This document shows, one piece after another, positions 1-58,862 of a DNA stretch of 64,000 nt. Position numbers and translations under genes: made by a program. The notes beneath the pieces were generated by a model, which made no database searches, was not told the origin of the DNA, and saw nothing but the letters and a program-made list of their open reading frames with translations. This stretch comes from a virus. How positions within the stretch are numbered: position 1 is the first letter of the stretch; every line of letters starts with the position of its first letter. The DNA lies in IMG/VR virus record IMGVR_UViG_3300032315_001715, positions 1 to 64,000 of that record, one strand, 5' to 3'.

Positions 1-606
1 ATCACCGGACCAACGGGACTTGGTGCCACGGGACCAACCGGAGCAGCATCAACGATCACCGGGCCACTTGGGTTGACCGGACCAACGGGACTTGGTGCCA
101 CGGGACCAACCGGAGCAGCATCAACGATCACCGGGCCACTTGGGTTGACCGGACCAACCGGATCAATCGGACCAAGAGGACTTACCGGATATACCGGGTC
201 AACCGGATCAATTGGCCCAACCGGTCCTAGAAACGGTCCAACCGGATCTCAGGGTCCAACCGGACCGGCCGGCATACCCGGTGTTACCGCGTATAATTTG
301 TACGTTAACTATGATGGCGGTGGTATCATATCGTCCGTTACTGGATTACCATCAGGGTGGTCAGCTTCCCTGGGACCATCGTCTGTTACCATAACACACA
401 ATGTTATTGGTCTACCGCAAAGCTTTATAGCATATGGACAAACCACCGTTGGAGGAACGATATGGACCAGCCGTGGACCAAATGCCATCATGAATTTGAT
501 ATACGACACTTCAATATCAAACCAGTTTACCCTTAATGGTATCACCGCTAATAACGTTGGTACCGTGTACGGCGGATCGGCAAGAATGTCGGTATTCTTC
601 GTGTAA
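1..606 (+). CDS. Collagen-like virion protein, 5' end outside window
   Basis: The frame is open from the left edge, so the gene starts before this window. About the first 90 visible residues are Gly-X-Y collagen triplets rich in G-P-T and G-L-T, as in trimeric phage fibres and adhesins. The last ~110 residues are a non-collagen globular end that probably folds as a C-terminal head. It is followed 12 bp later by the tail-fibre gene at 619, with no terminator between, so the two are probably co-transcribed. A role as a virion surface fibre is inferred from the composition and the neighbour. Confidence 0.85.
4..159 (+). repeat. 72-bp tandem repeat in collagen-like gene
   Basis: Two almost identical 72-bp units (24 codons) lie end to end, and the first may continue left of the window. 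Each unit encodes collagen triplets interrupted by an A-A-S-T-I segment. The period is a whole number of codons, so copy-number change would keep the reading frame. Confidence 0.9.
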
Positions 607-4020: not shown

Positions 4021-4614
4021 TTATCTAGGCACAAGGACACCGCGATAATTCATGGCCTTTACGGCAGTTTCCCAGTCAGGAAACTGCTGCCTGAACCTAG
4101 CTGATATGCACCAACGATCCTCATCGGAACAATAGATCGCATGCGGTACATCGACCCTAACCATGGTTAGGGCCATTCCTATCTCCTTGCGTTCAATTTC
4201 TTCGAGATCTTTTACGGGCCAAGTTAGATACGGGGTTTTAGCCATGGTCCATTTGATCTCATGCTCGCCCTCGGGTTTCTTGTACCATAACATCGTGCTG
4301 CCTCGTCCATTGATAACGATGTTAAGCGCTGCGGTGGCAAATTTTGCCGGATCCTTGGTCGATACATCGACATGCGCGTCAATGTTTCGAAATCTAGACG
4401 GCCGCCAAAACAACATAACACTACCGAGATCTAGCCCGATCGATTTGACTGAATCCAGCCATGTTTGGCTGAAAATTTTCGACGGATCTGAATATTGCCA
4501 GATCATGTTCCGACCGTTTTTGTCAACAACCGGCCACTCAAAATTTTCATTAATGGCATGGCTGGTATCAACATCCAAGTTGTACCAACAATGATTTGGA
4601 TTAAAGTGGGTCAT
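4021..4614 (-). CDS. 2OG-Fe(II) oxygenase-like protein, paralogue 1
   Basis: 197 aa. A jelly-roll (double-stranded beta-helix) iron site is suggested by A-H-V-D-V (H-x-D, residues ~79-81) and a distal VPHAIYC with RWCISARF, the expected second His and the 2OG-binding Arg. It is one of three paralogues flanking lpxC. AGG sits 7 bp before the ATG, and an ATAAATA late-promoter core lies at 4650-4656. The fold resembles the aspartyl/asparaginyl beta-hydroxylase group, which includes lipid A hydroxylase LpxO; the substrate here is unknown. Confidence 0.7.
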   Translation of the reverse strand: MTHFNPNHCWYNLDVDTSHAINENFEWPVVDKNGRNMIWQYSDPSKIFSQTWLDSVKSIGLDLGSVMLFWRPSRFRNIDAHVDVSTKDPAKFATAALNIVINGRGSTMLWYKKPEGEHEIKWTMAKTPYLTWPVKDLEEIERKEIGMALTMVRVDVPHAIYCSDEDRWCISARFRQQFPDWETAVKAMNYRGVLVPR

Positions 4615-5625: not shown

Positions 5626-6222
5626 TTATCTTCCCCAATCAGTGTAGCTTACGTTTTTGAAGAAGCCAACCGCGTCCTCCCAGGTTTTTAGGATACCGTG
5701 GCGAACTCGTAGGCTTACGCACCATCGAGCGAGTTGCCCACATCGTATCGCATGGGGAATATTGGTTCGTACCAACGTGAATGTGGGACCGACATGATAG
5801 CTGTGAAGCTCGGCTAACTGCTCGACCGGGAACATTGCCGCCGGAATACCATCAGCAACATACTCAAGCCGGTTGGTTGCGATTTTCTGCCAGTACCAAA
5901 CCATTGAACTGTTTCCGCCGCCAATGGTAAAATTCAAAGCACAGGTTACCGGTCCTTGATCGTTTGAACGAGTTACATCTATATGGGCATGCGTCGGTTG
6001 GTATCCAGGCGGTTTGTAAAATATCACGGCTGTTGCAACATCAATACCAATGGCTTTGGCATTGTTATACCATGTTTGGTCCAATATACTCGATGCATTG
6101 CCAAAATATTCGATCTGGCTTGATTCTAGATTTTTGATTTTTGGAAAATCAAAGTCAGACCTAAGAACGTTGATGCACGGCAAGGCCGGAAGAGGTAGAT
6201 AAAAGCTTGATTCAGCACCCAC
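5626..6222 (-). CDS. 2OG-Fe(II) oxygenase-like protein, paralogue 2
   Basis: 198 aa. The GTG at 6222 is chosen because GAGGA lies 7-8 bp upstream and because the N-terminus then aligns in length with the other two paralogues; a longer open frame has no ribosome site. THAHIDVT gives the H-x-D and IPHAIRCG...RWCVSLRVR the distal His and Arg. It overlaps the stop of paralogue 3 by 11 bp, so the two are translationally coupled and precede lpxC in transcription order. Confidence 0.7.
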   Translation of the reverse strand: MGAESSFYLPLPALPCINVLRSDFDFPKIKNLESSQIEYFGNASSILDQTWYNNAKAIGIDVATAVIFYKPPGYQPTHAHIDVTRSNDQGPVTCALNFTIGGGNSSMVWYWQKIATNRLEYVADGIPAAMFPVEQLAELHSYHVGPTFTLVRTNIPHAIRCGQLARWCVSLRVRHGILKTWEDAVGFFKNVSYTDWGR

Positions 6223-6808
6223 TGCCCAGTCCTCGATCGTTAACCAGATAGTCCACCGCATGATCCCAGAGTTGATATCGTCCACCAAACCGCATGCTTA
6301 CGCCCCATCTGCTCGAGTTGCCCACCAATACCGTGTGCGGCATGTTGGTTCTCACCAATGTAGGTTGGGTGCCGATGTTGCAACGGCTAATCTCATGCAG
6401 GTCGGCGATTTCAAAGGCCAAGTTGTGCGTGTTACCCGGAGCAATGTTAACAGGCCTATCCGCAATTTCCGCGGCGCCGGGCGAATCATACCATACCATT
6501 TCGGTAGAGCCGTTGTCGTATGCCCAATTAATCGCACAGGTGGTAACGTATCGTTTGGCATTAACGTCAATGTGTGCCCAGCCGTGATCCGATCCGGCTG
6601 CTCTCCAAAATAATATCACCGATGTGATGTTTGATTGCATGCTTGTCCAAAATTCAAGCCAATCGTTTGACATGATATCAGCCGGATTAGAATAGAAGAA
6701 TTCTCGTCTCTTGATATCTGGATCCAATGTTGGCCAAACGAAATCCGATCGCAATGCGGTCGAGGAATCCAAGGATAGCCGATACCACGGCTTGATCTGT
6801 TCTATCAT
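6212..6808 (-). CDS. 2OG-Fe(II) oxygenase-like protein, paralogue 3
   Basis: 198 aa. GWAHIDVN (H-x-D) and MPHTVLVG...RWGVSMRF (His, Arg) repeat the pattern of the other two. The start MIEQIKPWYRL is chosen by alignment; no Shine-Dalgarno is seen. An ATAAATA motif at 6817-6823 is only 8 bp upstream, so a transcript from it would be nearly leaderless. An ATG 60 bp earlier is the alternative. Confidence 0.65.
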   Translation of the reverse strand: MIEQIKPWYRLSLDSSTALRSDFVWPTLDPDIKRREFFYSNPADIMSNDWLEFWTSMQSNITSVILFWRAAGSDHGWAHIDVNAKRYVTTCAINWAYDNGSTEMVWYDSPGAAEIADRPVNIAPGNTHNLAFEIADLHEISRCNIGTQPTLVRTNMPHTVLVGNSSRWGVSMRFGGRYQLWDHAVDYLVNDRGLGSGC

Positions 6809-6816
6809 ATTGACGA

Positions 6817-6823
6817 TATTTAT
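6817..6823 (-). promoter_or_regulatory. Possible T4-like late promoter core
   Basis: The minus strand reads GCATAAATATCG just before the first oxygenase-like gene. It matches the other late-promoter cores but is unusually close to the start codon. Confidence 0.35.
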
Positions 6824-6906
6824 GCGAAAAAAGGTGATACGTTGCCGTACCACCCTTTCCTGGACCATATCAATGGGCGAGACAGTAACCCCGCCCTCCG
6901 TGGTTC

Positions 6907-13203: not shown

Positions 13204-13545
13204 TCAAGCCTCTTCGACCGCCTTGAGGAGCTCAGCCGCGGCATCAACGGTCTTGCTCTTGCCGGCGCCTTTCTTGATGGTCACGGTCTTGGCCTTGACC
13301 TCCTTGGCCGGCTTGGCTTCCTTTTCATTCGGCACACGGATGTTGGCCGCCTCGGGGAACTGCGCCGTATATGCTTCGATCGCGGCCATCTTGCCCATGG
13401 CTTCTGGCAGAGTGATCAGATTGATGTCGCTGTGGCCGTTGCGCTCCAGCACCTTGATGCGCTGGGCCATGTCGCCGTTGGCGAATCGAAACTTGGTGAT
13501 CTTGCCCTGCGTGCTGACGCCGACGATCGTAAAGGGTTTGTCCAT
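13204..13545 (-). CDS. 'RFANG-GHTD' family protein 1
   Basis: 113 aa. N-ter FTIVGVSTQG, then FRFANGDMAQRIKVLERNGHSDINLITLPEAM: this is the shared core of a family found at six loci in this window (13204, 35211, 35799, 50981, 53976, 57056). The C-terminal 40 residues are Lys/Ala-rich and probably disordered. Own promoter TTGACG-17-TAAATT at 13593-13621; AGGAGG precedes the start. Function unknown; the compact alpha-beta core with a basic tail would fit nucleic-acid or protein binding, which is inference. Confidence 0.8.
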   Translation of the reverse strand: MDKPFTIVGVSTQGKITKFRFANGDMAQRIKVLERNGHSDINLITLPEAMGKMAAIEAYTAQFPEAANIRVPNEKEAKPAKEVKAKTVTIKKGAGKSKTVDAAAELLKAVEEA

Positions 13546-13592: not shown

Positions 13593-13621
13593 AATTTAGC
13601 ACACGAACGGATTGGCGTCAA
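13593..13621 (-). promoter_or_regulatory. Sigma70-type promoter of 13204 gene
   Basis: TTGACG, 17 bp, TAAATT on the minus strand, of the same type as the right-hand array although this gene lies in the left part. Confidence 0.65.
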
Positions 13622-19922: not shown

Positions 19923-20813
19923 TTATCTCTCCCGATACTTGTCAACCAAGGACTGGATGTCAAGCAGCATGGCATCCATACTGGGAACCCGGCTCACCAC
20001 CGCGGATAGGTTGCCATAGTGTTGTTCCAGGCAATTCATCAGCAGCGCCTTGACGCGCTCCTCGTCAGGCCCGTGCGGCAGTTTGGAATTGGCATAGGCC
20101 GTTTCCAATGCATGCTCCTTGTTCTGGAAGTATGCCTCAAACTGATCCAGGGCCCACTCACCGCGCCGGATGCTTTTCAGCTGTTCACGATTGCGTTGCA
20201 GATCAAGATCGCCTTCCACAAGGATCTGCTCAACCTCGTTCATCAGCCGCACGCAGTGATAGGCGAACTTGAGATCGTATCCAAACTCAGCAATCTGCGC
20301 AGCCCTCTTCTCGTTGGAACTGTTGACCTTGTTGCGGATCTTAGATGCCTGCGCATAGGCATAACCCTTGAACTTGTGCCACGCGCCCTTGTGCAAGAAT
20401 GCCTTGCGATTCTCGCGAAATATCTCGGCGATGGGCGTGGTGTGGATGATGGCAGTTCGGGGGACGAACAGCGCATCGATCATGTTTGGATTGTTGTCCA
20501 TGCACAGTTGGAAGAATTGAACGATTGAATAGACTGCAAAATCATATTCAACCTTCTTGTCGGGGTGATGGATGTGATGCTCTTGCCACACGCCGAACCG
20601 CTGGATCTGCCGCCCAAATCCTGGGATCTCTCCGGCCAAATGCGGGAACACCAGTTCCTTGGGAGGGATGCAGACTCCATAGATGTCCTGGTCGCTAGTG
20701 TCGTTAGAGACGCCATAGGCCTGACTGCCCATGACTGTCAAATAAATGGTGTTGTCCGGTAACCAACGCGGAGGATGGATTAGATTTCGCTGGTTTAGAT
20801 CATGTAGCAGCAT
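19923..20813 (-). CDS. RlaP-type nucleotidyltransferase
   Basis: 296 aa. MGSQAYGVSNDTSDQDIYGVCIPP is the nucleotidyltransferase G-S...D-x-D site of the predicted nucleotidyltransferase (RlaP-like) family seen in large phages and bacteria, often with RNA repair enzymes; the third acidic residue may be in VEYDFAVYS. The start is chosen at MLLHDLNQ because AAGGAG lies 8 bp upstream. It overlaps the upstream gene by 14 bp. Confidence 0.8.
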   Translation of the reverse strand: MLLHDLNQRNLIHPPRWLPDNTIYLTVMGSQAYGVSNDTSDQDIYGVCIPPKELVFPHLAGEIPGFGRQIQRFGVWQEHHIHHPDKKVEYDFAVYSIVQFFQLCMDNNPNMIDALFVPRTAIIHTTPIAEIFRENRKAFLHKGAWHKFKGYAYAQASKIRNKVNSSNEKRAAQIAEFGYDLKFAYHCVRLMNEVEQILVEGDLDLQRNREQLKSIRRGEWALDQFEAYFQNKEHALETAYANSKLPHGPDEERVKALLMNCLEQHYGNLSAVVSRVPSMDAMLLDIQSLVDKYRER

Positions 20814-21159
20814 GCTTGGTCTCCTTGAATCCTGGATGCTCGAACCCATAGGCCGTAAATCCGCCACGGGTATCAGTGTCGATGTAGTCCGCGCCAACGA
20901 TGGCAACATCTCCCATGATGGACGTTAGGATTTCACCCGTGGCCACGAGGCCCAGGGCCCACAGCGGCAACAACATGAGACTATCGTCCCAGTTACCGAG
21001 CCCGACATCAAACAGCTCTCGGCATCCGATCGCTTGTAGCTCTGACACGCGGAGCCTGCGATCATCCTGCACCATCCACGGCTGGTACCGCGAGCTGCCA
21101 TCCACGGTCAGGCGGAAACGGGTAAATTCACCGCGGAGTATTTCAATGGTATGGTTCAT
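20800..21159 (-). CDS. Unknown phage protein
   Basis: 119 aa. MNHTIEILRGEFTRFRLTVDGSS start with AGGAG about 11 bp upstream. Mixed alpha/beta, no recognisable motif. Second last gene of a four-gene operon ending in the nucleotidyltransferase. Confidence 0.6.
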   Translation of the reverse strand: MNHTIEILRGEFTRFRLTVDGSSRYQPWMVQDDRRLRVSELQAIGCRELFDVGLGNWDDSLMLLPLWALGLVATGEILTSIMGDVAIVGADYIDTDTRGGFTAYGFEHPGFKETKHAAT

Positions 21160-31369: not shown

Positions 31370-31383
31370 CCGACATCCACGTC

Positions 31384-31479
31384 CGTTACGTCCACGCAAT
31401 AAAATGGTCAGGTTTCGGCAACCTCCCGGTGTCTCGTTGCCCTATGTCCGCATAATAGCACGTCTCGCGGCGGTGTCAA
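31384..31479 (-). ncRNA. Structured RNA element, copy A
   Basis: Promoter TTGACA-16-TATTAT (31452-31479), then a conserved ~60-nt transcript without ORF. Hairpin 1 pairs GGCAAC with GTTGCC around GAGACACCGGGAG; hairpin 2 pairs around GTGG near the 3' end. Five other close copies share the sequence. Confidence 0.65.
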
Positions 31480-31544
31480 CGGTTATTTTGGCCCTTGGAC
31501 CGCATTTCCGCGAAGCTCCATGCGGCACTAGACCCCCGCAGAAA

Positions 31545-31625
31545 CGGTTTTAAAGCCGCTACACGGGGGTCAACCACCAGGGCCGCTACTAGGGGTGCAG
31601 GCCATTGCGGAGGCGGCTGTACGGC
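31545..31625. repeat. GC-rich dyad block H1
   Basis: TTTTAAAGCCGCTACACGGGGGTC is shared with blocks at 34868, 42312, 52370, 55672, 58863 and 62956. Here followed by GGGCCGCTACTAGG. Lies downstream of RNA copy B. Confidence 0.6.
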
Positions 31626-31637
31626 GGTCTGTGTCGC

Positions 31638-31733
31638 TGTTGCGATCACGCAACGATAAGGTCAGAGTTCGGCAACCTCCCGGTGTCTCGCTGCCCTATG
31701 CGCGCATAATAGCACGTCCTCGGCTAGTGTCAA
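31638..31733 (-). ncRNA. Structured RNA element, copy B
   Basis: Promoter TTGACA-16-TATTAT at 31706-31733. Hairpin 1 GGCAGC/GTTGCC, hairpin 2 GTTGCG-TGAT-CGCAAC. This copy shows both helices most clearly. Confidence 0.7.
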
Positions 31734-31763
31734 CCCCTTTTATTGGCCGTCCGGGAGATATCC

Positions 31764-35210: not shown

Positions 35211-35726
35211 TTAGGCCTCGTTTGCTTCTTGCTCAGCGTCAGCACCCAACACCGCCAGCAGCTCGTCGGCAGCAGCCACCGCAGCAGCCTCGTCCTCGGC
35301 GGTGACCACCGCCGGCGTGGTGTCCGCATCGGGCACCTCGACCTGCTCACCTCCCGTCAGCGCGGCGAGATAGTTCTCGTCCTGCGCAGCAACACGGGCA
35401 GCACGCTTGGCAGCACGCGCTTCCGCCATGCGCCGCGTGAACTCCGCCTTGCGGGCAGCCTCAGCAGCAGCGGCCTTCTGCTCGTCGCTCAGCTCCACCG
35501 GGCCGGTCTTGCGATTGGTGGGGATCACCGCATCACGCCCTTGGTTGACCAGGAACGCCACGGCGTCCTCCTTGCTCATCGAGCCAGGCAGCTGGATGAG
35601 ATCCACGTCCGTGTGCCCGTGCCTCTTGAGCTTGGCAACTCGCACGTTGACCTTACCGGTGGCAAAGCGGAAGGTGTTGGTCCCATTCAGCGTGCTGGTA
35701 CCAGCGATGGTAAAAAGCTTGCTCAT
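35211..35726 (-). CDS. 'RFANG-GHTD' family protein 2
   Basis: 171 aa. FTIAGTSTLNGTNTFRFATG, HGHTDVDLIQLPGSM, AVAFLVNQG. An Ala/Arg-rich helix (RRMAEARAAKRAARVAA) and an acidic Ala-rich end follow; the helix is shared with the 57056 paralogue. AAGGA 5 bp upstream; promoter TTGACA-16-TAGCGT at 35757-35784. Confidence 0.8.
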   Translation of the reverse strand: MSKLFTIAGTSTLNGTNTFRFATGKVNVRVAKLKRHGHTDVDLIQLPGSMSKEDAVAFLVNQGRDAVIPTNRKTGPVELSDEQKAAAAEAARKAEFTRRMAEARAAKRAARVAAQDENYLAALTGGEQVEVPDADTTPAVVTAEDEAAAVAAADELLAVLGADAEQEANEA

Positions 35727-35798
35727 ATGCATCCTTTCTCTGTTTCTCGTGTCCGCACGCTAGCACAGCATGTGGACCTGTCAAGTGTTTTTTTGGCC

Positions 35799-36134
35799 TT
35801 AGGCCTCCACGGCGACCTTCTTGGCCTCGCGGGTGGCACGCGCCTTGGCCACCGCAGCGGCCTTCTTCTCCGCCGCCAGCAACACGTCGTTCTTCACGGT
35901 CTTGTCCGCGGCGCGGGTGGGGATCACCGCGCTCTTGGCACCCTTGATGTTCTGCAGCACCCAGGTGGTGGCCTGCACCTTGGTCATCGCCTTGGGCAGC
36001 TCCACGAGGTTGATGTCCGTGTGCCCGAAGTGATTGAGCATGTTCACGCGCAGGTTCAGCTTGCCGTTGGCAAAGCGGAAGGTCTTCACACCGTTCAGGG
36101 TGGTGAGGCCAGCGATGGTAAAGGTCTTTTCCAT
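35799..36134 (-). CDS. 'RFANG-GHTD' family protein 3
   Basis: 111 aa. FTIAGLTTLNGVKTFRFANG, FGHTDINLVELPKAM, TTWVLQNIKG; basic Ala-rich tail. Tandem with member 2. AGGGA 8 bp upstream; promoter TTGACG-16-TACAAT at 36203-36230 with a long (~65 nt) leader. Confidence 0.8.
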   Translation of the reverse strand: MEKTFTIAGLTTLNGVKTFRFANGKLNLRVNMLNHFGHTDINLVELPKAMTKVQATTWVLQNIKGAKSAVIPTRAADKTVKNDVLLAAEKKAAAVAKARATREAKKVAVEA

Positions 36135-36234
36135 GTGTTCAGTCCCTTGTCCGTTGCGCTTGCTTGCCCAATGCTCGCCTAGCGCTCTGTTTCAACACCC
36201 GCATTGTAGCACCATGCTACGCCGCGTCAACCAA

Positions 36235-41887: not shown

Positions 41888-41950
41888 TTAGTTGCTCCTT
41901 GCTCAGTGATGCCATTGTAGCAGGATTTGGACGGCAGTCAACCGAAAAGA

Positions 41951-42047
41951 TCGTTTTGATCACGCAACATTAACATGAGATTTCGGCGTCCTCCCGGTGT
42001 CTCGCTGCCCTATGTGCCTACTATAGCACGTCAGCAGCCGCTGTCAA
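41951..42047 (-). ncRNA. Structured RNA element, copy C
   Basis: Promoter TTGACA-16-TATAGT at 42020-42047, then the conserved GGCAGCGAGACACCGGGAGG core. Hairpin 1 is weaker here (GGC/GCC only); the next gene's promoter follows directly. Confidence 0.65.
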
Positions 42048-42316
42048 CCGGAAACTGGTCCAGCTTCCTGCCACGACAATATCCGATTGCGACGCAGCGC
42101 ACGCCAACCGATCTTGTGTTCCCAGACCATGATGTTGCGCTTGATCGCTGCTCGGCGATCTGGCCGGCGATAGGTGTATGAGAACAGCCGGGGGTTGGTG
42201 GTGGCTAGCATGATCCGTGTCATGCCGTCAAGCCTGACATAGCGTATGCGGACCCAGCCGCGGCGCAGGGCACCATCCAGTGGAGCACCCTCGAGGAGCA
42301 ATTCTTGTGCGTTCAT
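42044..42316 (-). CDS. SH3-like barrel protein (DUF2693-like) 2
   Basis: 90 aa. VRIRYVRLDGMTRIMLATTN, RLFSYTYR, VWEHKIGWRALRRNRILSWQ aligns with the 18326 gene. Start lacks a ribosome site and lies beside block H3. Confidence 0.7.
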   Translation of the reverse strand: MNAQELLLEGAPLDGALRRGWVRIRYVRLDGMTRIMLATTNPRLFSYTYRRPDRRAAIKRNIMVWEHKIGWRALRRNRILSWQEAGPVSG

Positions 42317-50980: not shown

Positions 50981-51502
50981 TCAGCCCTGCACCAACGTGC
51001 CGTCGGCCATGATCTTGACCTTTTCCTTGCGGAGCATGGCTTCCAGCTCGGGATAGGTGCCCGGGGGGCATTTGATGCCCGCTGCCGTTGCGGCATTGCG
51101 GCACATTTCCTGCCGGGTTTCCTCGCTGATGTGATCCCAGTCCAGATAGCTGATGCCGCTGGACTTGTGGGCGGCCCGCCCCAGATCCTCGTGGGCTAGG
51201 GCAGTGGCCTTTCGCACCAGCTCGTCCGCCAGCCTGGATATCGTGCGCTCCCGGGGAGTCCGCTCCACCTTGGGCTTGTCCACCTTGGGAGCCTGCACCG
51301 GCACCACATCACCCTGGGCAGCCAACCACTCCGTGGCCGCAGCGGTGGTCATCTTGCTGGGCAGGTCCCAGAGGCACACCTCGGTGTGTCCGTCCTTTTC
51401 CAGCACCTTCTGGCGAGCGTCGGCCGTGCCGTTGGCAAAGCGCAGCTTCTTCTCGCCGCGCTTGATGCTGGTCCCAACCACGGTCCAAGTCTTGTCGTCC
51501 AT
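50981..51502 (-). CDS. 'RFANG-GHTD' family protein 4
   Basis: 173 aa. WTVVGTSIKRGEKKLRFANG, KDGHTEVCLWDLPSKM, ATEWLAAQGD, then ~100 residues of helical extension unique to this member. GAGGAG upstream; promoter TTGACG-16-TACAAT at 51530-51557. Confidence 0.8.
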   Translation of the reverse strand: MDDKTWTVVGTSIKRGEKKLRFANGTADARQKVLEKDGHTEVCLWDLPSKMTTAAATEWLAAQGDVVPVQAPKVDKPKVERTPRERTISRLADELVRKATALAHEDLGRAAHKSSGISYLDWDHISEETRQEMCRNAATAAGIKCPPGTYPELEAMLRKEKVKIMADGTLVQG

Positions 51503-51565
51503 CGCTCTAGCTCCTCGTCTCGTGCAGGCATTGTAGCACGGCTAGCACTACCGTCAACCGAAATC

Positions 51566-52192: not shown

Positions 52193-52254
52193 CACCCAGC
52201 AGAGCAAGGCAAAAGATCGCTTGCTCTGCTGGGTGGATGATGCTGTATTTTTTT
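52193..52254 (+). terminator. Rho-independent terminator
   Basis: CACCCAGCAGAGCAAG with exact complement, then a T7 run after 13 nt. The right arm contains a TTGCTC box spaced 17 bp from TGTATT, so it may also be a promoter toward RNA copy D. Confidence 0.8.
52221..52249 (+). promoter_or_regulatory. Convergent promoter facing RNA copy D
   Basis: TTGCTC, 17 bp, TGTATT inside the terminator; it would transcribe the antisense of copy D. Confidence 0.4.
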
Positions 52255-52349
52255 GTTGCTGTATCGCAACGCCGAGGTCAGAGTTCGGCAATCTCCCGGT
52301 GTCTCGCTGCCCTATGCGCGTATAATAGCACGATCGCACATCCTGTCAA
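52255..52349 (-). ncRNA. Structured RNA element, copy D
   Basis: Promoter TTGACA-16-TATTAT at 52322-52349; conserved GGCAGCGAGACACCGGGAG core and 3' hairpin GTTGC/GCAAC. Confidence 0.65.
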
Positions 52350-52369
52350 TGGGAAAATCGCCGGATACC

Positions 52370-52486: not shown

Positions 52487-53293
52487 CTATGCGCGGGCCC
52501 AGTTCTCGCTGACGTAGCGTGCCGCCTGCGCCCTGGGCATGCCGAGGGTCGTCATCGCCCGGGCCACCACCCAATCCTGCCCGCCACCCTGGACGCGGGC
52601 ATCGCGTATCATTGCCCTCACCTGCTCAGCCTTGCTGGCACCAGCCCGTGCCGTGGTCTCTACCACCGGGCTGCGCTGGACCTCGATGACGACCTTGGGT
52701 GCGGTCCTGGGAGCAACGGGCCACGCTCCTGCCACGTTGGCGGGCCTCGGGCCGTTTCTGCTGATGGTGGGCAGGGGTTGACCGCTGGGTGCAAAGACGC
52801 TATAGCGGTCGATCGTGCCCTTGCCGCGCTTGAAGTTCAGCACACCGCCCTGCTGGACGTGATCGTGATATCGCTTGGTGATGCTGACCTTGTGACCGAG
52901 GTCAGTGAGGTAGTCCCAGCGCCCCTTGACCACCACGTCGTAGTCGTGTCTGGTGTTGCCGTTGCCACCCAGCGCGAGGCACACCCGCCGCCAACCCATG
53001 TCGTGCTTGCGACCCAGCTCGGGGCGGGCGAAGCACACCAGGTGGGCCACCTCGTGGGCAACGGTCTCGTCCCGGATGTCCTCGAAATGGTTGCCCTGGA
53101 TCAGCTCGCAGTTGAAGCGCAGGGTGAAGTCCTTGGCCCTGCGCGTCATCGCACAGAACTTGCATCCCGCCCAACCAGCCACCCGACCACGCAGGTTGTA
53201 GCTGACGGTGGGCTTGATGTCAACACCGTAGAGCGCCTTGGCATTGGCCAGCACCTCGTTGGTCTTGCGGGTGATCTCAGCAAACCTGTCCAT
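52487..53293 (-). CDS. SprT-like zinc metalloprotease
   Basis: 268 aa. ETVAHEVAHLVCFARPEL carries HExxH (HEVAH), with HDMGWRRVCLALGG supplying the third ligand His, and FNCELIQG before it, as in SprT/Spartan proteases, which cut DNA-bound proteins. The C-terminal ~70 residues are a separate helical domain after a Pro-rich linker. M2 has AGGGAG 7 bp upstream; promoter TTGACC-17-TATCTT at 53319-53347. Confidence 0.88.
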   Translation of the reverse strand: MDRFAEITRKTNEVLANAKALYGVDIKPTVSYNLRGRVAGWAGCKFCAMTRRAKDFTLRFNCELIQGNHFEDIRDETVAHEVAHLVCFARPELGRKHDMGWRRVCLALGGNGNTRHDYDVVVKGRWDYLTDLGHKVSITKRYHDHVQQGGVLNFKRGKGTIDRYSVFAPSGQPLPTISRNGPRPANVAGAWPVAPRTAPKVVIEVQRSPVVETTARAGASKAEQVRAMIRDARVQGGGQDWVVARAMTTLGMPRAQAARYVSENWARA

Positions 53294-53372
53294 CATCTAG
53301 CTCCCTGCCTACCAATGGAAGATAGCACGGCATCCCGGGTTGGTCAACCAAAAAATGCCGTCACATCCGCCA

Positions 53373-53975: not shown

Positions 53976-54248
53976 TCAGCCGACTCGTCCGCTCCGTGTC
54001 ACCAGCCTCGGATGCCACGGAGCATCAATCCCTTGTTTTTGCAACCAGTTCCATGCCTCTGTGATGCACAACATTGGGGTCGGAAGGTCCAGCATGATGA
54101 TGTCGGTGTGATCGCCTAGATGCCGCATCCTGCCGGTGGCTGTTCTGGCACACGCTCGCTTGCTCGCCCTGAAGTGTCGATTACCATTGACATCGGTTGA
54201 CACTCCGACGGCAATATACGGCACGTCCTGATAAAGCACCAACGGCAT
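53976..54248 (-). CDS. 'RFANG-GHTD' family protein 5, divergent
   Basis: 90 aa. YIAVGVSTDVNGNRHFRASK, GDHTDIIMLDLPTPM, AWNWLQKQGID keep the family spacing with FRASK for RFANG and D-H-T-D for G-H-T-D. Promoter TTGACC-17-TAGATT at 54276-54304. Confidence 0.7.
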   Translation of the reverse strand: MPLVLYQDVPYIAVGVSTDVNGNRHFRASKRACARTATGRMRHLGDHTDIIMLDLPTPMLCITEAWNWLQKQGIDAPWHPRLVTRSGRVG

Positions 54249-54300
54249 GTGCTGCGACCTTCTTGCTTGATGTTGAATCTAGTACCGATCCGCGATATGG

Positions 54301-54687
54301 TCAACCGGCAATTGCCACCGCGTTCTTCATGGTGCAGTTGATCTCACCCTCGTTCAAATAGCTGATGCCCCAGGTGTAGCAATAGAAGCCCGTGTCGCCG
54401 TCGCAGTCCATGGCGGCCATGTCCCAGCGCAGCGCGGTGGCACGATCAATGGCGTTATCCGCCATCAGCTTGGTGATGTGGGCGGCCCACCGAGCCTCGG
54501 CACGCTGCTGGGCCGCGTGCTCACGAGCGGTCTCCTCGTCAGCCGCACGACCGAGCCGGTCCCACTCCTCCTGCCGGCCCTGGTCGTCCATGCCGTTCCA
54601 CGCGGCCCACCAGCCCTGCCCGGGGCGGAAGCCATAGGCCTCCTTGTGCAGATCGCTGACCACATTGCTGTCGAAGGTCGAATCCAT
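54301..54687 (-). CDS. Conserved phage protein, unknown
   Basis: 128 aa. HKEAYGFRPGQGWWAAW and AAMDCDGDTGFYCYTWGI. AAGGAG 9 bp upstream; promoter TTGACT-17-TATGTT at 54715-54743. Confidence 0.75.
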   Translation of the reverse strand: MDSTFDSNVVSDLHKEAYGFRPGQGWWAAWNGMDDQGRQEEWDRLGRAADEETAREHAAQQRAEARWAAHITKLMADNAIDRATALRWDMAAMDCDGDTGFYCYTWGISYLNEGEINCTMKNAVAIAG

Positions 54688-57055: not shown

Positions 57056-57484
57056 TCAGGCCGCCGCCTCTTCCTCTTGCACCGCGGCCAGCAGCCGCTT
57101 CGCAGCACGCGCCGCCGCCATGCGCGCAACAAAGTCAGCTGCCTTGGCAGCCTTCTCCGCCATCGCCGCAGCGTGCGTCTGCACGTGGGCGTCCAGCTGC
57201 ACCGCAGCCTCCACCACCGCCGCTTCGCTGCGCCCGTTCTGCCCGCGGCGCTGTCCGTAGGGCAGCTCAGCATGGACGCCCTGCGCCTTGAGGAACGCCA
57301 CCGCGTCCTTCAGCACCATCGCGCGGGGCAGCTCCATCAGCACCACGCTGGTGTGCCCGTTGCGTGCCAGCACCGCGGCGCGCTTCAGCGTGTTGGCAAA
57401 GCGGTAGGTGTTCACGCCGTCCTGCACGCTGGTGCCAGCCACGGTGTAGGTGTGCTCAACAGCGGTGTTGTTCTCGTTGCTCAT
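57056..57484 (-). CDS. 'RFANG-GHTD' family protein 6
   Basis: 142 aa. YTVAGTSVQDGVNTYRFANT, NGHTSVVLMELPRAM, AVAFLKAQGV; C-terminal helix (ARMAAARAAKRLLAAVQEE) shared with the 35211 gene. ACGGAG upstream; promoter TTGACG-16-TATTAT at 57524-57551. Confidence 0.8.
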   Translation of the reverse strand: MSNENNTAVEHTYTVAGTSVQDGVNTYRFANTLKRAAVLARNGHTSVVLMELPRAMVLKDAVAFLKAQGVHAELPYGQRRGQNGRSEAAVVEAAVQLDAHVQTHAAAMAEKAAKAADFVARMAAARAAKRLLAAVQEEEAAA

Positions 57485-57575
57485 GTCGCTCGCTCCGTTG
57501 TGTTGTGCGCTCTTCATGTCCGTATAATAGCACCACCGCAGCGTCCGTCAACCAGAAAAGTGCCAATCTTTTTGG

Positions 57576-57604: not shown

Positions 57605-57609
57605 GCATG

Positions 57610-57704
57610 GTTACGATCCCGCAACGATGGGATCAGGTTTCGGCGTCCTCCCGGTGTCTCGTTGCCCTATGTCCGTATAATAGCACGCTCGCACACGCCG
57701 TCAA
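57610..57704 (-). ncRNA. Structured RNA element, copy E
   Basis: Promoter TTGACG-16-TATTAT at 57677-57704; GGCAACGAGACACCGGGAGG core and 3' hairpin GTTGCG/CGTAAC. Confidence 0.65.
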
Positions 57705-57870
57705 CCAAAAAGATCCCTTGACATGCTGACAACAAGCTGCTAGCCAACGTTGCCTGTGTCGTTGCGCACACCAAACGATCGCCACTGTCAACCGAAAAGA
57801 TTGGTTGACGCAGCGACGACACGGTGCTAGCGTTTTTATCGTTACAGGGATGCAATGATGCAGATTTGGC
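57705..57870. other. Promoter-rich non-coding stretch
   Basis: No gene. Two plus-strand promoter-like pairs (TTGACA-17-TAGCCA near 57718, TTGACG-17-TAGCGT near 57805) and a CAACCGAAAAGATTGGTTG dyad lie between copy E and the plus-strand gene at 57927. Confidence 0.45.
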
Positions 57871-58723: not shown

Positions 58724-58754
58724 GCAGCGACGGCCGGCCGCCCGGCGACGGATC

Positions 58755-58849
58755 GTTTTGCCAGCGCAACAATGGGGTCAGGGCTCGACAGCCTCCCGGT
58801 GTCTCGCTGCCTTATGCGCGTATAATAGCACGCCTAGCAGCAGCGTCAA
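58755..58849 (-). ncRNA. Structured RNA element, copy F
   Basis: Promoter TTGACG-16-TATTAT at 58822-58849. Hairpin 1 is GGCAGC/GCTGTC, a compensatory change from the other copies (GTTGCC). Confidence 0.65.
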
Positions 58850-58862
58850 GCGAAAAAACACA

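Follow-up and report, generated by a model that had tools for sequence, protein, structure and literature searches.

The gene at positions 50,981 to 51,502 of the window, which is the stretch of 64,000 nucleotides analysed here from the uncultured phage record IMGVR_UViG_3300032315_001715, raises the question of why one jumbo phage should carry several copies of a small gene without a named family and what the products of these copies might do. We addressed this question by comparing the copies with each other and with relatives in other phages, and by examining their promoters, their predicted fold and their C-terminal ends.

Six genes with a common N-terminal core

In an all-against-all BLASTP comparison of the 292 minus-strand open reading frames of the window, one cluster consisted of exactly the genes 13204, 35211, 35799, 50981, 53976 and 57056, named here by coordinate (E 6e-22 to 8e-4; Table 1). 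The closest pair, 35211/35799, are tandem neighbours with 51% identity over 73 residues (E 6e-22), and the weakest link joins 57056 to 53976 (E 8e-4). The latter is the weakest member, with this one BLAST link only; it scored 92 bits in a profile search in which the profile had been built from all six genes including 53976 itself. BLASTP and the profile thus agree with the first-pass annotation that the six genes at these coordinates have a common core of ~60 residues; all six are minus-strand reading frames, and the core is N-terminal. Its description of the tails as unrelated was borne out as well, no relatedness being found among the tails of the six. When the six-member profile was run across the whole 452,799-base record, the same six places were returned and no seventh copy. 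The genes had also been called scattered through the genome, which is inaccurate because all six are confined to the first 57.5 kb of the 453-kb record.

The motif string proposed earlier describes the consensus of the core reasonably well, but not every member conforms to it. Three of the six genes (13204, 35799 and 50981) have RFANG exactly; the motif reads RFATG in 35211 and is missing from 53976, and in 57056 RFAN is followed by a loop two residues shorter. Likewise, [GD]HTD is found in three of six, as GHTD in 35211 and 35799 only and as DHTD in 53976; the corresponding residues are GHTE in 50981, GHSD in 13204 and GHTS in 57056. Invariant across the window six are G10, R21, A23, R30, H39, L47, P48, M51 and A56 (numbering of 50981). 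In a family alignment of 55 sequences, G9, R20 and H38 are invariant, and S11, G15, F21, A22, N23, R29, L33, G37, T39, D40, L46 and K52 are conserved in at least 90%. For 57056 the true start is most likely the internal ATG at base 57484, because ~7 nt separate the putative -10 element from the first ATG, and the second ATG has a GGAG ribosome site ahead of it.

Table 1. Coordinates of the family genes, their predicted promoters and further features of the window
Feature	Position	Strand	Description	Evidence
Family member 1	13204..13545	-	113 aa; core and basic K/A-rich tail, end AVEEA	ORF, BLAST/profile links
Promoter of member 1, sigma-70-like	13593..13621	-	TTGACG-17-TAAATT	
Family member 2	35211..35732	-	171-173 aa; core and long Ala-rich tail, basic then acidic	
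Promoter of member 2	35757..35784	-	TTGACA-16-TAGCGT, weak -10	
Family member 3	35799..36134	-	111 aa; adjoins member 2; query of both structure models	
Promoter of member 3	36203..36230	-	TTGACG-16-TACAAT	
Family member 4 (gene under study)	50981..51502	-	173 aa; core and ~100-residue private C-terminal part	
Promoter of member 4	51530..51557	-	TTGACG-16-TACAAT	
Family member 5	53976..54248	-	90 aa; most divergent; without RFAN; insertion near helix 1	
Promoter of member 5	54276..54304	-	TTGACC-17-TAGATT	
Family member 6	57056..57517	-	<=153 aa; 142 aa from 57484; Ala-rich tail, end EEEAAA	
Promoter of member 6	57524..57551	-	TTGACG-16-TATTAT	
Promoters with -10 inverted repeat, examples	39604, 48922, 49302, 57047, 36784, 62946	-	TTGAC starts	
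~105-nt direct repeat (family D4)	31382-31740, 41950-42054, 52252-52356, 57607-57711, 58752-58856			
Second paralogous trio	4021-4614, 5626-6288, 6212-6868	-	~200-aa proteins	
RNA-repair nucleotidyltransferase-like (RlaP) gene	19923-20909	-		
SprT-like metalloprotease gene	52487-53296	-		

Relatives in uncultured phages

The degenerate pattern R[FY]AN-x11-GHTD retrieved relatives in at least 120 IMG/VR contigs, which rules out a family private to the window jumbo phage. All 120 listed matches translate to the form FxVAGVSxLxGxxKVRFANDxxRxKVLxKxGHTDIxLxELPxAM, and the listed relatives are mostly 80-200 aa long, most with a K/A/P-rich tail. The variant of RFANG with a two-residue insertion was, among what was searched, restricted to the window phage and the near-identical strain IMGVR_UViG_3300037189_024364. 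With a 42-sequence core profile, 37 of 40 related records were found to hold one copy, two held two and one held three. Six copies in one phage are exceptional because single copies are the rule and three the maximum. Four of the six window members cluster in a tree (support 89/97, from few columns), and this grouping points to duplication within the lineage as the source of the set. The core of the family is, as judged from substitution ratios, under strong purifying selection and the tails less so; among relatives the median dN/dS was 0.13 for the core and 0.27 for the tails (235 pairs, which are non-independent).

Outside these phage contigs the family was not recovered. The same pattern, run against one genome each of 84,980 prokaryotic species, gave five matches, none of them encoding the family, although divergent members could escape because the scan relied on the exact motif. 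Four members gave no tblastn match among 50,697 cultured phages (three at E <=1, one at E <=0.001). Searches of Pfam, NCBIfam, PHROGs and PDB sequences yielded chance-level matches only, INPHARED gave no match, and the PADLOC defence profiles gave scattered weak matches, one member each (best E 0.004). Matches to the Cake beta-propeller profile were rejected as repeat inflation. No description of the family was found in the open-licence literature, which was searched without using the sequence itself. The family is hence new to the sequence libraries searched; as a kind, small proteins that phages make early and whose function is unknown are common. Although the family recurs in 120 or more contigs of uncultured phages, annotation pipelines overlook it because it was not found in Pfam, PHROGs, NCBIfam or the cultured-phage collection.

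Predicted fold of the core

AlphaFold2, supplied with the family alignment, predicted for 35799 a compact b1-b2-a1-b3-a2 fold with pLDDT 95-97 at residues 1-60, and a model of the core alone reached pLDDT 94.2 and pTM 0.77. A Foldseek search of BFVD returned eight uncharacterised proteins of uncultured phages at probability 1.00. These proteins of uncultured Caudovirales phages (A0A6J5LST1, A0A6J5T9P2, A0A6J7WD61, A0A6J5RVJ5 and others) have the same predicted fold with 18-38% identity and evidently belong to the same family; they carry no function, name or family.

A Foldseek search of the PDB gave nothing significant (best E 1.7). The top VIA match of the core model was the RNA polymerase epsilon subunit YkzG (4njc; Z 4.1, rmsd 3.1, 48 of 51 residues, 6% identity), with phycobilisome linkers (3.7), gyrase (3.4), CutA (3.3) and threonine dehydratase domains tied within 1 of this Z score; Foldseek assigned the YkzG match an E of 6.5. 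We take this modelled resemblance as a lead only. Epsilon (YkzG/RpoY) and T7 Gp2 are like the family in being small alpha/beta proteins of similar length, but they share no sequence similarity with it, Gp2 was not matched in the fold search, and neither protein's Pfam family was among the profile matches. The phi29 uracil-DNA glycosylase inhibitor p56 has a bbab arrangement resembling that predicted for the family core (Z 2.1-2.8 over 43-46 residues), but it is a weak match among many with 6-12% identity and is a protein of 56 residues without a long tail. UPF0213 structures appeared only among the weak Foldseek matches to the family models, and the GIY...YIG motif of GIY-YIG/T5orf172 proteins, with its catalytic Arg and Glu, is absent from the family alignment. 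The first-pass annotation had recognised no named family and had held that a confident match to a characterised domain would speak against it. Since no such match emerged from profile, PDB or fold searches, its view holds for Pfam, NCBIfam, PHROGs, PADLOC, PDB sequences and the fold searches.

Promoters of the family genes

Each gene had been said to have its own promoter, and we found TTGAC-N16/17-TANNNT shortly upstream of all six. Within 120 nt before the gene, 93% of 88 distinct relatives have a TTGACA-16..18-TATAAT promoter that deviates at no more than two positions, and in 45% the match is perfect. The corresponding values were 30% (perfect 16%) for other reading frames of the same loci and 6% (perfect 0%) for shuffled upstream sequence, a contrast that is somewhat inflated because the comparison frames include spurious ones and operon-internal genes; the absolute frequency before the relatives is striking. 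In the window as a whole, TGNTAYAAT occurs 32 times as against 2.1 expected.

A separate feature of the region is that in 15 of 71 sigma-70-like promoters on the minus strand (window 28000-64000) the -10 hexamer is flanked by an inverted repeat with perfectly matching arms of 8 bp or more (examples in Table 1). The arms pair together and differ between promoters, a layout that would put the -10 element in the loop of a hairpin or cruciform. A partner-swapped control gave a mean of 0.9 and a maximum of 3 in 200 shuffles. The feature is weaker in related phage loci (14 of 1058 vs 1.9), and the promoters of the six family genes are without it. Promoter-like sequence is also overlapped by a ~105-nt direct repeat in six copies, the others being 69-77% identical to the reference copy.

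Tails and C-terminal ends

In 38 of 89 distinct relatives the protein ends in an acidic tip finishing with Pro-Phe, Pro-Tyr or Ser-Phe (EDAPF, EDAPY, DENIPF, DDTPF, DDIPF or EEASF). Over the last five positions the entropy is 0.35-0.9 bits, as against ~2.3 before them, and these five are far better conserved than the preceding 15. The tip is preceded by a basic Ala/Lys/Pro-rich linker; of 84 relatives, 95% have a linker with a net positive charge, and in 71% the last ten residues are negative. Such ends are rare elsewhere: a regular expression found them in 3 of 2,463 other reading frames of the same loci, one being a truncated family member. Fifteen whole records contained ten matches to the tip pattern, distributed over nine records, of which nine were the family gene and one a separate orphan with ~110 residues and a DDDIPF end; the family gene was the sole match in eight of these nine records and one of two in the ninth. 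A small orphan besides the family (~110 aa, start MRLMLG), likewise with an SSB-like DDIPF end, was seen at L179 (record G034 near 150056) and at L134:2381-2713. The tip is clustered by phylogeny, with 7 changes as against 28 in shuffles, and hence reflects few independent events.

None of the six window members has the tip, and no C-terminus in the 452.8-kb record matches [DE][DE]xP[FY]. Relatives lacking it tend toward an E-A-V-[AT]-[AE] end, and several window members close on similar E/A strings. Two window tails, those of 35211 (-6) and 53976 (-1), are not net basic before the last ten residues.

With bacterial single-stranded DNA-binding protein (SSB, PF00436) about 40% of the relatives share the layout of a folded N-terminal head, a disordered linker and an acidic end in Pro-Phe. 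The E. coli SSB tip, MDFDDDIPF, contacts more than 17 partner proteins, and its terminal Pro-Phe occupies a hydrophobic pocket of RecO (PMC7913777). The heads differ, an OB fold in SSB and a 60-residue predicted bbaba topology in the family, as do the ends, DDDIPF and EDAPF/Y, and PF00436 was matched by no family member scanned. PF00436 was also absent from all 16 records tested, and a gp32-like protein was encoded in five, of which four also have family members with the tip. We rejected the idea that the family merely serves as the SSB of these phages, because a gp32-like SSB is also encoded by the tip-bearing records G007, G027 and G034 and by the EEASF-ended G009. Three gp32-like proteins (L188, L189 and L190 of records G009, G027 and G016) themselves have EDAPF/EDAPW-like strings inside the acidic linker, followed by a C-terminal RAQDILAMIRNRNK-type segment. 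Because similar strings are internal to these linkers, EDAPF-like ends could partly reflect composition.

Possible roles of the family

Our tentative reading is that the family is a phage-specific, small, early and strongly transcribed adaptor, the tips of which bind SSB-interacting proteins in the lineages that have them. The analysis itself demonstrates the family, its distribution, the predicted fold, the promoters, the tip and the selection. We infer the early timing from the host-type promoters, a likeness that suggests early expression rather than proves it, and likewise infer the adaptor action and the binding of SSB-interacting proteins. We favour an adaptor because the conserved polar residues of the head point to a single docking site, and the variation among the tails to second contacts that differ. 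In the head, the conserved polar residues R20, N23, R29, H38-T39-D40 and S11 would form a site that docks onto one shared target, probably a macromolecule of the host, and the mostly disordered, usually basic tail would give a second contact. The SSB-like tip (EDAPF, EDAPY, DENIPF or DDIPF) would fit the pockets of repair and replication proteins that interact with SSB, and thereby recruit or titrate them; by analogy with SSB, tip-bearing relatives may draw in proteins of DNA repair and replication at an early stage of infection. The tip cannot explain the whole family because it is absent from the window six and from 57% of relatives. In the window phage, duplication to six copies with differing tails and no tip would leave the same head with, maybe, different partners.

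Three other roles were weighed against the adaptor. It is doubtful that the proteins are nucleic-acid binders in which head and basic, H1-like Ala/Lys/Pro tail coat or organise the DNA or RNA of the phage, with binding under the control of the acidic end as in SSB or Hfq. The charge pattern of linker and last ten residues, the mean core charge of +1.6 and the conserved Arg, Asn and His would suit this role, and the RNA chaperone Hfq, which is autoregulated by acidic C-terminal tips, provides a precedent (PMC5606850); but Foldseek and VIA gave no convincing nucleic-acid-binding fold, the tails of 35211 and 53976 do not fit, and an end that is exactly Pro-Phe/Tyr goes beyond what acidity as such would require. 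Modulation of host RNA polymerase, with a small early head binding the enzyme like T7 Gp2 or epsilon and shutting off or redirecting host transcription, appears rather improbable. Epsilon has been described as a structural relative of Gp2 (PMC7749165, PMC7722741), YkzG heads the structural matches and host-type promoters precede nearly every family copy. The YkzG score nevertheless ties with those of unrelated folds, with a poor Foldseek E and low identity, Gp2 itself is unmatched, and the acidic tips would be left unexplained.

The first-pass annotation had read the expansion as a sign of an important, perhaps anti-defence or regulatory, role. That the expansion is unusual stands; the role is conjectural, and nothing found is specific to defence. 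The best hint at function is the SSB-like tip, which relatives have and the six window copies do not. An arms race, with each paralogue as the inhibitor of its own host defence protein, would accord with six copies, diverse tails, host-type promoters and a phage-only distribution, but the core of the relatives is conserved rather than diversifying, a single copy is usual across the family's phages and no PADLOC family matches well, so that we regard this as quite unlikely.

Returning to the adaptor, a broader form of it would be an undescribed, widespread class with a new small fold, an early head and interchangeable tails, in which many members mimic the SSB tip and capture SSB-interacting proteins and the six members here serve different partners; we consider this extended form unlikely. 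Should the SSB-like tip prove functional, phage capture of the host's hub for replication and repair would acquire a sequence-readable handle. With its six copies, the window phage supplies a natural series in which one head is combined with six different tails.

Other features of the region

The window contains a second paralogous trio, nearly tandem, the proteins of which are 28-32% identical. The RlaP-like and SprT-like genes (Table 1) also lie in this region.
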